Part shown: positions 4,965 to 9,086 of the stretch, piece after piece
Layout: every line of letters starts with the position of its first letter
Numbering within the stretch: the first letter of the stretch is position 1
Assembly (NCBI GenBank): GCA_945865525.1
Contig: CAMBDY010000012.1
Span: 1-64,000, forward strand
Length of the DNA: 64,000 nucleotides
Source of the DNA: Nitrospira lenta
Lineage (GTDB): Bacteria; Nitrospirota; Nitrospiria; Nitrospirales; Nitrospiraceae
Direction: 5' to 3'
Position numbers and translations under genes: made by a program
The notes under the pieces: generated by a model
What the model saw: the letters and a program-made list of their open reading frames with translations, nothing else
What the model was told of the DNA's origin: nothing
The model's database searches: none

Positions 4965-5531
4965 TCAGTCCGTATGGTCTTTATGCATGACCTTTTCCGT
5001 CCAGGCGAGGAGGATGGTAGAACTGAGGAAGGTCAGGTGGATCAAGATCTTCCACTTAATCTGCTCGAGATCTTCATTCGCGATGTTGACGAACGATTTT
5101 AGCAAGTGAATGCTAGAAATCCCGATCAGTGAGGTGGCGAGCTTGATCTTGATGGTGCCGGCGCTGATGTGGGTTAGCCAATCAGGCCGGTCCGGATTGC
5201 CTTCGAGATCTAATTTGCTGACGAAGGTGGCATACCCGCCGATAATTACCACCGTCAGTAAATTTGCCACCATCGTGACGTCAATCAGCCCCAAGATGCC
5301 CAACATGAAGACGGTCTCTTCCAGTTGGTTGATGTGGAGGACCATCTCCCACAGTTCCACAAGAAACTTATAGGCATAGAGCAGCTCGGCCACGATCAAG
5401 CCCCCGTAGAGCGGAGCTTGAATCCATCGGCTGGCGAACACGGTGGTTTCGAACCCCTGCTCTATGCGGAGAGCGAGAGGAGATCGAGCGTGTTTCACGG
5501 TTGTGGCAGTTGAATGTTCGGATTGGCTCAT
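4965..5531 (-). CDS. UPF0114/YqhA-family membrane protein
   Basis: A 188-residue protein with about four hydrophobic segments: roughly residues 40-65 (APLYGGLIVAELLYAYKFLV), 75-100, 105-125 (VANLLTVVIIGGYATFVSKL), and a C-terminal helix near LIHLTFLSSTILLAWTEKVM. The stretch DLEGNPDRPDWLTHISAGTIKIKLATSLIGISSIHLLK is characteristic of the UPF0114 (YqhA) family of inner-membrane proteins. The molecular role of the family is not known. It converges with uvrA, the two stops being 9 nt apart. A good TTGACA-17-TACGAT promoter lies directly before the ATG. Confidence 0.85.
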   Translation of the reverse strand: MSQSEHSTATTVKHARSPLALRIEQGFETTVFASRWIQAPLYGGLIVAELLYAYKFLVELWEMVLHINQLEETVFMLGILGLIDVTMVANLLTVVIIGGYATFVSKLDLEGNPDRPDWLTHISAGTIKIKLATSLIGISSIHLLKSFVNIANEDLEQIKWKILIHLTFLSSTILLAWTEKVMHKDHTD

Positions 5532-5538
5532 GAAAAAT

Positions 5539-5567
5539 ATCGTAGCCTAGCGAGTCTGCTCTGTCAA
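5539..5567 (-). promoter_or_regulatory. Promoter of the UPF0114 gene
   Basis: Consensus TTGACA (5562-5567, minus strand), 17-nt spacer and TACGAT (5539-5544). Seven nucleotides separate the -10 box from the ATG at 5531 and no Shine-Dalgarno fits between, so transcription probably begins at or next to the start codon. Confidence 0.6.
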
Positions 5568-5619
5568 TTTGTTTGACCGCCTTGAGTCGGGAGCGTGACG
5601 CGACAGACCATGCCCATGT

Positions 5620-7500
5620 TCACTTGGGGGCCGCCAGTTTCAAATTGATGTGCTGAGGAGAGGGGTGGGTGTCTTTGTCGGCTTGTGGAAACTTGCTCTC
5701 AAGTACCTTTCTAATGGCCGCGATCGTGTTGGCATCGAGACCAGATGCCGCCAGCTCCTCATTCGTGGCGGCAGCAATGTTCGCCAAACTACCATATTGC
5801 TTGAGTAGACGAGTCCTGGTGACCTCGCCAATGCCGCTTACCTCATCCAATTGCGAGGCCATCAGCGCTTTGCTTCGCAGTTTACGGTGGAAGGTGATCG
5901 CAAATCGATGGGCCTCATCTCGAATGCGTTGCACGAGATGGGTGGCAGGTGAGTTTGCGCGAAGCATAATGGGGTTCTTTCGGCCCGGCAGAAAAATCCG
6001 CTCCTCTTTTTCACCGCGCGCTTTGGCCAATCCGATAATGGCCAGGTCCTGCTGCCCGACTTGTTTCAGCCCCTCCATGGCTGCGGCGAGCTGGCCTAAT
6101 CCTCCGTCAATAAGGATGAGATCCGGACGCGTGAGATCCTCGCACTCTCCATAGCGGCGTATAACGACTTCCTGCATGCTGGCAAAATCGTTGGCGCCAG
6201 TGACCGTTTTGATGGTGAACCGGCGGTAGTCGGCTTTCTTCATCTGGCCGTCTTCCCAGACCACCATGGAGGCGACGGACTGGCTGCCCATGGTGTTCGA
6301 TATGTCGAACCCCTCGATGCGTTTTGGCACAACGTCTAGACGGATGAGTCGCTTCAGCTCTTCCATCGCTTGTCGGCCGATTTCTTCGTTGCGCAGATGA
6401 TTGGCGACGGCGGCTGCGGCGTTTTCCTCCGCGAGGAGGACCAATTGGTGTTTCACCCCTCGCTCCGGCGTGACCACGAGGACGGTATTCCCCCGCTTCT
6501 CCGAGAGCCATTCTTCAATTACCTTGGCGCCATCCAGATCCGTGGGGATGAGCAGCTCTTTGGGCGGTTGCCCGTCTTTGTTGTAGAACTGCTCGATGGC
6601 GGATCGAACCAGTTCCTCATCGCTGGTGTCGGCTGATTGGGGCCAGAAGTAGTCCTTGCGTCCGATCAGTAGCCCACCGCGCACAAAGAGGATCTGGAGA
6701 TCTACCGCGGTGCCTTGTCGTGCCAGACCGATTACGTCCTGATCAGTCGTTGTTGTTTGAGTGATTCGTTGCTTTTCGAGTGTGCGTTCGATGTTGAAGA
6801 GTTGATCGCGTAGGCGCGCCGCTTCCTCGAATTCCTCGCGTTCCGACGCCCGCTCCATCTGGGCACGCAAGTTGTCCAATAATTCATGATCGCGCCCTTC
6901 GAGAAACTGGCGGACTTGCGCGACGATGCGGTGGTAGTCCTCTTTTGATTGGTTGCCGGTGCAGGGGGCCATGCACCGTTTGATTTCGAATTCGATACAG
7001 GCTCGGTCCGCTTTGCCATCAATCGCGATGGTACAGGTGGCCAGAGGGAACGTTTTCTTGATGACCTTCAATGTTTCCCTCAGGGCGCCGACCGGCGGGT
7101 AGGGGCCATAGTAGAGGGCTCCGTCTTTTTGTACACGACGGACGACCGTGAGGCGTGGGAAGTCTTCTTTGATCGGGAGACGCAAGTAAGGATATTGCTT
7201 GTCGTCCCGCAAGAGGATGTTGAAGCGGGGCCTGTGCCGTTTGATGAGGTTGTTTTCGAGGATGAGGGCTTCGAGCTCTGAGCGGGTCACGATTGTGTCC
7301 AGATCCGCAATCTTGCCTATCAGGAGAGTATTTTTAGGGGAATGACCGGTCCCTTTTTGGAAATAGGACCTCACTCGGTTGGAGAGGATTGATGCCTTCC
7401 CGACATAGAGGACTTCGTTCTGTCCGTCCTTGAAGAGATAGACTCCGGGCTGATCCGGCAGGTGGTCGAGTTTGGATTGAAGTTCTTGTGAGGTAGCCAT
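5620..7500 (-). CDS. uvrC: UvrC, excinuclease ABC nuclease subunit
   Basis: UvrC makes the two incisions around a UvrB-marked lesion. The 626 residues show the full layout: N-terminal GIY-YIG domain (LPDQPGVYLFKDGQNEVLYVGKAS), the UVR motif for UvrB contact around 200-235 (EREEFEEAARLRDQLFNIE), the RNase H-like 5' nuclease with IEGFDISNTMGSQSVASMVV and DLILIDGGLGQLAAAMEGL, and C-terminal helix-hairpin-helix motifs (LDEVSGIGEVTRTRLLKQYG). Length matches the family. It lies close to uvrA but on the other strand; uvrB is not in the window. Confidence 0.97.
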   Translation of the reverse strand: MATSQELQSKLDHLPDQPGVYLFKDGQNEVLYVGKASILSNRVRSYFQKGTGHSPKNTLLIGKIADLDTIVTRSELEALILENNLIKRHRPRFNILLRDDKQYPYLRLPIKEDFPRLTVVRRVQKDGALYYGPYPPVGALRETLKVIKKTFPLATCTIAIDGKADRACIEFEIKRCMAPCTGNQSKEDYHRIVAQVRQFLEGRDHELLDNLRAQMERASEREEFEEAARLRDQLFNIERTLEKQRITQTTTTDQDVIGLARQGTAVDLQILFVRGGLLIGRKDYFWPQSADTSDEELVRSAIEQFYNKDGQPPKELLIPTDLDGAKVIEEWLSEKRGNTVLVVTPERGVKHQLVLLAEENAAAAVANHLRNEEIGRQAMEELKRLIRLDVVPKRIEGFDISNTMGSQSVASMVVWEDGQMKKADYRRFTIKTVTGANDFASMQEVVIRRYGECEDLTRPDLILIDGGLGQLAAAMEGLKQVGQQDLAIIGLAKARGEKEERIFLPGRKNPIMLRANSPATHLVQRIRDEAHRFAITFHRKLRSKALMASQLDEVSGIGEVTRTRLLKQYGSLANIAAATNEELAASGLDANTIAAIRKVLESKFPQADKDTHPSPQHINLKLAAPK

Positions 7501-7616: not shown

Positions 7617-8486
7617 TCAGCGGAGCTCGCGCACGAACGAGCAACCGAGGCCCCCCCGCGCAACTTCCGCGACCGGTCCCTTCATCGTGAGGCTGAAGTC
7701 TTTGGCGACCTTGATGTTGAGCTGGCCTCCCGGCATTTTCACCGTGACAGGGCTCGTGACCAGTCCCAGCTTGACGGCCGCGCTTGCTGCGGCGCAGGAG
7801 GAGGACCCAGAGGCTTGGGTTTCACCGGCCCCGCGCTCCCAAATCAGGATAAAGAGTGCCTTCGGGCCGATCGGGACGGCGAGCTGTACGTTCGTGCGTT
7901 TTGGGAAGAGAACATGGTTTTCCAGCGCAGGTCCCAGCGTGAGGAGATCCTTGCGCGACCAAGATTGGCCGGCCGGCTTGAATACGACGCAATGGGGATT
8001 GCCGACGCTGACGCCAGTAAACATAAGTAGCTGACCTGCCGCTTCGATAGGCTGTGTGATCAGTTCATTGGCTGTGAGGGTGCAGGGAAGTGACGCAGGC
8101 CCGAATGACGCCTTGCCCATTTCAACTGTGACGGAACTTGCATCTCCATGCCGGTCCAAATGCAGCTCGATCGTGACTAGTCCACCTTTGGTTTCGACAG
8201 TAAAGTGGTGCTTCTTCGTTTTGCCGGTGGCGTGGAGATAGCGGGCGAAGATGCGCAGGCCGTTACCGGACTTTTCTGCTTCGCTGCCGTCAGGATTGTA
8301 GATCCTCAGGCCAAAGTCCGCTTTTTTCGTTTCCGCCAGCGCCAGAATTCCATCGCTACCCAATCCCCAGTTCCGATCGCAGATGGCTTTGATCCTCGAT
8401 GGACTAAGTGGGAACGACAGTTCCTTGGGGTCCATCACAATATAGTCATTGCCCAGCCCATGCCCGCGAAAGAATCCATTCTTCAT
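7617..8486 (-). CDS. dapF: Diaminopimelate epimerase-family protein with both catalytic cysteines replaced by serine
   Basis: DapF interconverts LL- and meso-diaminopimelate for lysine and peptidoglycan synthesis, using a two-cysteine acid/base pair. The 289 residues carry the family fold: FRGHGLGNDYIVMD at the N-terminus, NPDGSEAEKSGNGLRIFARY, VGNPHCVVF, and WERGAGETQASGSSSCAAA. In characterized DapF the catalytic cysteines are the first residue of CGNG (Cys73 in Haemophilus) and the C of ACGTG. Here these are Ser73 and Ser226. The start at 8486 is fixed by AAAGGAG 7 nt upstream; the frame is open further upstream but without a ribosome site. Either a Ser-based DapF variant or a protein of altered activity. 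Confidence 0.85.
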   Translation of the reverse strand: MKNGFFRGHGLGNDYIVMDPKELSFPLSPSRIKAICDRNWGLGSDGILALAETKKADFGLRIYNPDGSEAEKSGNGLRIFARYLHATGKTKKHHFTVETKGGLVTIELHLDRHGDASSVTVEMGKASFGPASLPCTLTANELITQPIEAAGQLLMFTGVSVGNPHCVVFKPAGQSWSRKDLLTLGPALENHVLFPKRTNVQLAVPIGPKALFILIWERGAGETQASGSSSCAAASAAVKLGLVTSPVTVKMPGGQLNIKVAKDFSLTMKGPVAEVARGGLGCSFVRELR

Positions 8487-8636
8487 GTCCGGCTCCTTTG
8501 GTATCTCGTCGTTCGTGAGTCGGGGGAACCATACTGTGGCTGAACCGGAGTCGTCAATGAGACGAGTTGGGACTAAAGCGTGAATCGGGGGCACATTCGT
8601 CACGAGCGATAAGCGATGAGCAACCTTTTGCGAGGC

Positions 8637-9035
8637 TCATACGATGTTGACGCCTGGTAGCCGTTCGATAAGTTCAACTTCATACCCGTCAGGAGCATCG
8701 ATGAAGATAAACCGGCTACCGGAGGAGGTAGACGTTGGTCCGTCGGTGATCGTGACGCCCTTTGCGGCGAGGGCTGCGATGGTGTCGTTCATATTCTCGA
8801 CTTCAAAGGCGAGATGAACCAGATCTTCCTGGACCTTCACTGGCCCGCTTGGTGGGAAGCTGCAAAGCTCGATCAGCTCCGCACTGTGGGGCACTTTAAG
8901 GAAAGCCAGATGAGAGCCACGAGGTGACACCTTTCGCTCCAGTACCTCGAGCCCGAGGATGTCGCGATAGAAGGCAATCGTTTGGTCCATGTCGCTGACC
9001 CGCATACGGGTATGGAGAAGTTTCGTAATTCGCAT
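8637..9035 (-). CDS. Glyoxalase I-like VOC-family metalloprotein
   Basis: A 132-residue single-chain vicinal-oxygen-chelate protein resembling GloA (lactoylglutathione lyase). All four metal ligands of bacterial glyoxalase I can be matched: His in LLHTRMRVSDMD, Glu in ELIELC, His in LVHLAFEV, and Glu in GYEVELIE. The family block DGYEVELIERLPG is well kept. It could detoxify methylglyoxal, but VOC proteins of this size include methylmalonyl-CoA epimerases and dioxygenases, so the substrate is tentative. The ATG at 9035 is preferred over a TTG four codons upstream. It lies in a minus-strand run with the GNAT and deacetylase genes. Confidence 0.75.
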   Translation of the reverse strand: MRITKLLHTRMRVSDMDQTIAFYRDILGLEVLERKVSPRGSHLAFLKVPHSAELIELCSFPPSGPVKVQEDLVHLAFEVENMNDTIAALAAKGVTITDGPTSTSSGSRFIFIDAPDGYEVELIERLPGVNIV

Positions 9036-9086
9036 AGCTCGTTTCAATAAAAAGCGTACACGTAAAAATAAAAAAATGATGTATTT

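Follow-up and report, generated by a model that had tools for sequence, protein, structure and literature searches.

A conserved DapF variant with serine in place of both catalytic cysteines is most likely the working diaminopimelate epimerase of Nitrospira

Here, we describe a member of the diaminopimelate (DAP) epimerase family, DapF, in which Ser73 and Ser226 replace the Cys/Cys pair. We propose that it is a working DAP epimerase (EC 5.1.1.7), which converts LL-DAP to meso-DAP, a precursor of the cell wall and of lysine, and rate this reading at roughly three in four. As judged from sequence comparison, the Ser/Ser DapF is a natural, conserved variant, neither an error nor a product of decay, and most likely the DAP epimerase at work in Nitrospira. 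The gene was found in a window of 64,000 nucleotides (contig CAMBDY010000012.1, positions 1 to 64,000) from an assembly of Nitrospira lenta (GCA_945865525.1).

Results

The dapF gene and its product

The dapF gene is located at 7617..8486 on the minus strand and encodes 289 amino acids plus stop (MKNGFFRGHGLGND...EAEKSGNGLR...ERGAGETQASGSSSCAAA). Ser73 (codon TCC, 8268..8270, minus) occupies the position of the first catalytic cysteine, and Ser226 (codon TCT, 7809..7811, minus) that of the second, which is Cys217 by E. coli numbering. Both assignments come from alignment with solved DapFs and bear out the double replacement noticed in the preliminary description. The strong ribosome-binding site reported there is confirmed as well: AAAGGAG (8493..8499, minus) lies 6 nt upstream of the ATG. 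The further claim that all surrounding motifs are kept has to be withdrawn, as positions 15, 72, 79, 214, 228 and 229 are also unlike those of most Cys/Cys DapFs. A mechanical ORF list starts the frame at an upstream GTG, but the proteins of nearly all relatives start at, or close to, the position of the ATG. The neighbouring genes give no functional clue. Downstream lies uvrC (5620..7500, minus), upstream a glyoxalase/VOC-family gene (8637..9047, minus), with GNAT and deacetylase genes nearby, and no DAP gene adjoins.

Family membership and fold

The window protein scores 227 bits against the TIGR00652 DapF equivalog (cut-off 114.65) and shows two PF01678 half-domain matches. An AF2 model built on 22 sequences (pLDDT 82.3, pTM 0.79) has the DapF fold. 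A Foldseek search with this model returned DapF entries at ranks 1-19, including the C73S and C217S mutants (2q9h, 2q9j), which we take to be from H. influenzae. With VIA, DapFs made up 16 of the first 17 matches (Z 23.6-28.3), rank 5 being an O-ureidoserine racemase; the C73S mutant was matched with Z 26.2 (rmsd 3.8, 263 aligned) and the C217S mutant with Z 25.7 (rmsd 4.0, 265 aligned). The substrate-binding residues of DapF, presumably N11, N64, N190, E208 and R209 in E. coli, are conserved as N13, N64, N199, E217 and R218 in both Ser/Ser and Cys/Cys types throughout the 171-row alignment described below. The modelled helices 74-86 and 227-239 place Ser73 and Ser226 each directly ahead of a helix; cysteines at helix starts are reported for DapF (PMC12039745) and for HisR (PMC11602996). 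By sequence and predicted fold, the protein thus belongs to the DapF family. The PROSITE signature PDOC01029, as quoted in PMC8225329, has a cysteine before [GI]-N-[GA], and here SGNG is found instead of CGNG. With Ser73/Ser226 at the two catalytic positions, the protein also falls, on its sequence, outside the thiol/thiolate class of Cys-Cys cofactor-independent epimerases.

Co-varying active-site residues

An alignment of 171 non-identical rows comprised 109 Ser/Ser, 61 Cys/Cys (mostly Nitrospirota, three PDB chains included) and one Ser/Cys sequence. Column counts across the two types single out Lys72 (AAG, 8271..8273, minus), Ser229 (TCC, 7800..7802, minus) and Tyr15 (TAT, 8442..8444, minus). 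Position 72 is Lys in 107 and Arg in 2 of the 109 Ser/Ser rows, and Met, Phe or Gln in all 61 Cys/Cys rows; position 229 is Ser in 109/109 and Gly in 61/61, respectively. Furthermore, Ser/Ser rows carry Ile79 versus Cys79, Tyr15 versus Phe15 (61/61 Cys/Cys rows) and Leu214 (103/109) versus Arg214. In a wider, redundant set, position 72 is Lys in 149, Arg in 5 and Met in 1 of 155 Ser/Ser sequences, versus Met in 104, Phe in 7 and Asn and Ala in 1 each of 113 Cys/Cys sequences. Position 229 is Ser in 153 and Gly in 2 of the former, and Gly in 110 and Ala in 3 of the latter. Lys/Arg72 and Ser229 are therefore not quite fixed marks (Met72 in 1/155, Gly229 in 2/155), the Ser/Ser exceptions being L271 and a plasmid copy of Agrobacterium vitis. 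Positions 15, 79 and 214 are weaker marks of the Ser/Ser type in this set, and Tyr15 is ruled out as an exclusive one, since it occurs in some further Cys/Cys DapFs. The change at position 72 deserves attention because, in a cyanobacterial Cys/Cys DapF as described in PMC12039745, basic residues are absent from a radius of 4 A around the thiols.

Selection on the gene

Pairwise comparison of the window dapF with 10 relatives gave dN/dS of 0.059-0.115 (pS 0.33-0.68, the higher pS values being near saturation), which indicates that the gene is under purifying selection. Of the 155 Ser/Ser ORFs in the redundant set, 129 encode Ser73 by TCN and 26 by AGY, e.g., AGC in N. moscoviensis versus TCC in the window; Ser226 is TCN in 155/155. 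A switch between TCN and AGY takes two base changes via Cys or Thr, and residue 73 is still Ser.

Distribution of Ser/Ser DapF

The window genome (1.80 Mb, 39 contigs, 99.74% complete) has Nitrospira and Nitrospirae MAGs as its nearest named relatives. Its 1.8 Mb at this completeness compare with 2-4.4 Mb for most genomes listed under the same genus. DapF is present in 57 of 61 relatives searched, the window genome counted in, and 56 of these 57 show two half matches, i.e., one gene. The exception, G026 of the same genus, has four half matches from two nearby Ser/Ser dapF genes on the same strand (L032:3920-4786 and 5268-6134; pS 0.33, pN 0.036 apart). We read the DapF of 49 of the 57 genomes and found 41 Ser/Ser, seven Cys/Cys and one Ser/Cys. 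The Ser/Ser proteins come from families f1 (33 of 34 read) and f3 (8/8), the Cys/Cys proteins from f2 (six) and f4 (one). The Ser/Cys protein (L040:2601-3425, G035, an odd genus of f1) is a DapF of the f2/f4 type with Ser at the first position, Cys at the second and Phe72, and hence a natural one-thiol DapF.

In the whole phylum Nitrospirota, DapF was detected in 188 of 197 genomes. Fifty of these proteins were read, a non-random sample of best-scoring listed and hand-picked matches: all 49 from outside f1 and f3 were Cys/Cys, and the one from f1 was Ser/Ser. Four Nitrospirota genomes listed as 96-100% complete (G134, G209, G221, G226) gave no DapF match at E 0.001. The serines are thus a clade trait within Nitrospirota, one of the possibilities raised in the preliminary description, and they recur across f1, f3 and beyond. 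Since the same residues are found in many other genomes, an assembly error at the Ser codons is ruled out.

A contig scan with an alignment of 22 Ser/Ser proteins yielded Ser/Ser at 79 of the best 80 loci of 577 relatives, which gives no frequency because both scan patterns contained the Ser motif itself; the remaining sequence, L121, ends before the second catalytic position. Labels among these best 80 include Nitrospira moscoviensis, N. defluvii and other Nitrospirota, as well as Latescibacterota, Gemmatimonadota, Deltaproteobacteria, Dadabacteria, Armatimonadetes and one Planctomycetales, with the reservation that MAGs may carry mistaken taxon labels. In the phylum of a Latescibacteria genome, DapF occurs in 56 of 64 genomes, and 29 further DapFs read in this set split into 17 Ser/Ser and 12 Cys/Cys. 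None of these 56 genomes was seen to have both kinds; each shows one full gene, with an extra partial match in G369. A search of viral contigs for relatives of the Ser/Ser DapF found none. We also found no description of a natural Ser/Ser DapF, or of such a clade, in the open PMC literature.

The DAP pathway in Ser/Ser genomes

The window genome has one dapF only, with its two PF01678 halves side by side, and no second, canonical dapF was found in it. DapL, LysA, DapA and DapB were searched in this genome alone: lysA scores 544 bits, dapL 616 bits (over cut-off), and dapA and dapB lie beside lysA. A second LysA-like protein (L053, G000:C22:22292-23524) scores 217 bits, under the lysA cut-off of 297.9. 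MurE is over cut-off and carries DNPR, which we take to be the mark of the DAP-adding enzyme. Among 16 Ser/Ser genomes, MurE exceeds the cut-off in 15, and DNPR was seen at 12 of 16 loci, while L168, L180, L181 and L182 gave no match under the pattern used. No DAP dehydrogenase was over cut-off in any of the 16, and only G061 and G067 showed partial matches, both weak; we therefore reject a bypass by this enzyme in these genomes. LysA needs meso-DAP. Given DapA, DapB, DapL, LysA and a DNPR-type MurE, and with no DAP dehydrogenase found, the window genome needs a DAP epimerase. The Ser/Ser gene is the sole DapF found in 13 of 15 Ser/Ser genomes, including the N. moscoviensis chromosome; the other two, G066 and G067, possess an additional Cys/Cys DapF.

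Genomes with both kinds of DapF

Within the phylum to which G066 belongs, DapF was detected in 109 of 112 genomes, seven of them with four half matches (two genes). Six of these two-gene genomes were read, G307 being the seventh. Five of them (G066, G354, G274, G298 and G341) hold one Cys/Cys and one Ser/Ser-clade DapF each, and G253 combines a Cys/Cys DapF with the divergent L271 (G253:C700; motifs MSGNG and SSGTG), a Ser/Ser protein lacking Lys72 and Ser229 whose tree placement is unsure. G296 has a lone Ser/Ser gene. Together with G067, a Ser/Ser-clade DapF thus stands beside a Cys/Cys DapF in six sampled genomes. In G066 the Cys/Cys gene is clustered with dapA-dapB; its counterpart in G067 is found with argH-lysA-dapA-dapB (lysA-argH by model). 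The gene annotated as dapF on the A. vitis plasmid pRvVAT039a (L296:8935-9831) is Ser/Ser with Arg72 and Gly229. Its neighbours encode an iron-containing redox enzyme, a 2OG-Fe dioxygenase, a desaturase and IrrA, so that this locus may be a biosynthetic or iron-linked cluster.

Gene order and origin

Gene order (DISPLACEMENT) shows that the lysA cluster holds an older-type dapF in f4, in the odd f1 genus and in f2. The arrangement is lysA-dapF-dapA in f4 (L049), argH-lysA-dapF-dapA-dapB in the odd f1 genus (L040) and lysA-dapF with dapB further on in f2 (L044; L014 likewise, by letters only). In the window genome, argH-lysA-dapA-dapB form one cluster in which lysA and dapA leave no space for a dapF between them, and the Ser/Ser dapF sits elsewhere, beside uvrC. 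The surroundings are equally uninformative in G068 (DsbD/TolQ-like genes), G063 (TolB-like) and G341 (nitrilase and GNAT). Pointers to the cell wall come from only two of the scanned neighbourhoods: in an Armatimonadetes MAG, the Ser/Ser dapF directly follows a D-Ala-D-Ala ligase gene, and in a Dadabacteria MAG it adjoins rlpA.

Trees were computed without eight signature columns; they are quick trees with many weak forks. Nitrospirales Ser/Ser proteins group with those labelled Latescibacterota, far from the f2/f4 type (branch length 1.12). When five very long Cys/Cys rows were dropped, 36 of 37 Ser/Ser rows fell on one side with support 97.9; the 37th, L271, stood apart in the free tree, although a tree constrained to include it could not be rejected (p-AU 0.718). 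With the five long rows kept, the Ser/Ser label takes two changes, the main branch containing 35 rows (support 81) with L282 and L271 outside. The Ser/Ser type may therefore have had one or more origins, and the clade was probably passed between lineages. We infer that the Ser/Ser gene arrived by horizontal transfer and displaced the operonic dapF.

Discussion

The preliminary description had left the choice between a natural Ser/Ser epimerase and a changed reaction, and had named as refuting signs a second, canonical dapF together with loss of purifying selection, or an assembly error at both codons. The sole dapF, the clade-wide serines and dN/dS of 0.06-0.12 in all 10 pairs support its proposal. 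We favour an epimerase over a changed reaction because of the pathway context and the loss of the operonic dapF. In such a route, LL-DAP from DapL would be converted to meso-DAP by the Ser/Ser DapF and passed on to MurE and LysA. On opposite faces of the alpha carbon, the two serines would take the roles of base and acid, one each, and Lys72 beside Ser73, perhaps with Tyr15 and Ser228/Ser229, could lower the serine pKa or relay protons. A fuller picture would comprise a thiol-free clade of DAP epimerases with Lys72-set Ser/Ser proton transfer and a rebuilt active-site edge, which spread horizontally between phyla, replaced the Cys/Cys enzyme and escapes disulfide shut-off. This combination we put forward tentatively, and we would not quite back it as a whole.

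The behaviour of engineered mutants speaks against a working epimerase. As the preliminary description had stated, Cys-to-Ser changes severely cut activity: PddB mutants are reported to retain <0.1%, the like is said of M. tuberculosis DapF (PMC8225329), and HisR mutants show greatly reduced activity (PMC11602996). Taken at face value, these nearly dead mutants would make the window protein a weak or dead relic in a cell that uses LL-DAP or very little DAP. Such an outcome is highly improbable in view of the low dN/dS, the serine kept through a switch of codon family and the occurrence of Ser/Ser DapF under several phylum labels. The presence of LysA, with its need for meso-DAP, also argues against it. 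The protein might instead be a DapF-fold racemase for another substrate, i.e., a paralogue whose replacement of DapF is only apparent, with meso-DAP supplied by an unrecognised enzyme. The six genomes in which a Cys/Cys DapF coexists, and G253 with its divergent Ser/Ser protein, make a second function of the Ser/Ser copy possible. The iron/redox setting of the A. vitis plasmid copy, and the scarcity of cell-wall pointers among the scanned neighbourhoods, also count against the epimerase reading. DapF relatives are reported to act on Dab (PMC8225329) and His (PMC11602996), and within the proline racemase superfamily, dehydratase activity accompanies both a Cys-to-Thr change (PMC8142540) and a Ser/Thr dyad (PMC4113996). 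We nevertheless consider another substrate unlikely. Among the Nitrospirales that were read, and likewise for the Latescibacterota set, the Ser/Ser gene is the sole DapF, and LysA, MurE, DapL, DapA and DapB remain in the window genome with no DAP dehydrogenase. Moreover, DAP offers no beta-leaving group to a dehydratase, and the residues N13, N64, N199, E217 and R218 are common to both types.

A last alternative is a variant of the working epimerase, and its odds overlap with those given above: Lys72 rather than Ser73 would be the base on one face, in a Lys/Ser two-base mechanism with Ser73 as a helper. The pairing of Lys/Arg72 with Ser73 in 109/109 Ser/Ser and 0/61 Cys/Cys rows fits this arrangement, as do the absence of a nearby basic residue from the description of the Cys/Cys enzyme (PMC12039745) and the report that PLP-dependent serine racemase has Lys and Ser for its two bases (PMC8142540). 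Arg at position 72 in some members, and Met72 in the Ser/Ser protein L271 of uncertain placement, weigh against it, and we regard it as a minority reading to be kept in mind. Our preferred account remains the working epimerase in which Ser73 and Ser226 take over from the Cys/Cys pair.

The closest known systems are the Cys/Cys DapFs of H. influenzae, E. coli, C. glutamicum and Anabaena. These share the two PF01678 halves, TIGR00652, the fold, the Asn/Glu/Arg set and the place in the DAP route; the window protein differs by Ser/Ser together with Tyr15, Lys72, Ile79 and Ser229, where Phe, Met/Phe/Gln, Cys and Gly are usual. The C73S and C217S mutants have the same fold and one cysteine changed to serine, but they are man-made single changes without the surrounding substitutions of the Ser/Ser clade. 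Natural serines for a catalytic cysteine in a related fold are reported for a Ser-Cys 4-hydroxyproline epimerase, which has epimerase activity, and for a Ser-Thr trans-3-hydroxyproline dehydratase, which has no thiol at all (PMC4113996); both belong to another family with other substrates, and at the second position they carry Cys or Thr instead of Ser. The cofactor-independent Cys/Thr aspartate/glutamate racemases Ecl-DER and MMP0739 are likewise reported to have lost one thiol naturally; they differ by the one thiol left, by family and by an irreversible or predicted one-way reaction (PMC8142540).

A thiol/thiolate pair is the accepted account of cofactor-independent racemases, whose Ser mutants are used as controls with almost no activity. 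A clade that is Ser/Ser by nature, often supplying the sole DapF of its genome and occurring under several phylum labels, would mean that the fold can be rebuilt for thiol-free work and makes the accepted chemistry directly testable, with the co-varying residues 15, 72, 79 and 228-229 marking where to look. C. glutamicum DapF is reported to lose activity with H2O2 and to form an active-site disulfide (PMC5296763), which would be impossible in the Ser/Ser enzyme. A natural Ser/Ser enzyme would also be expected to resist oxidation and DapF inhibitors directed at thiols. For genome interpretation, missing DapF cysteines would be no ground for calling a DAP pathway broken.
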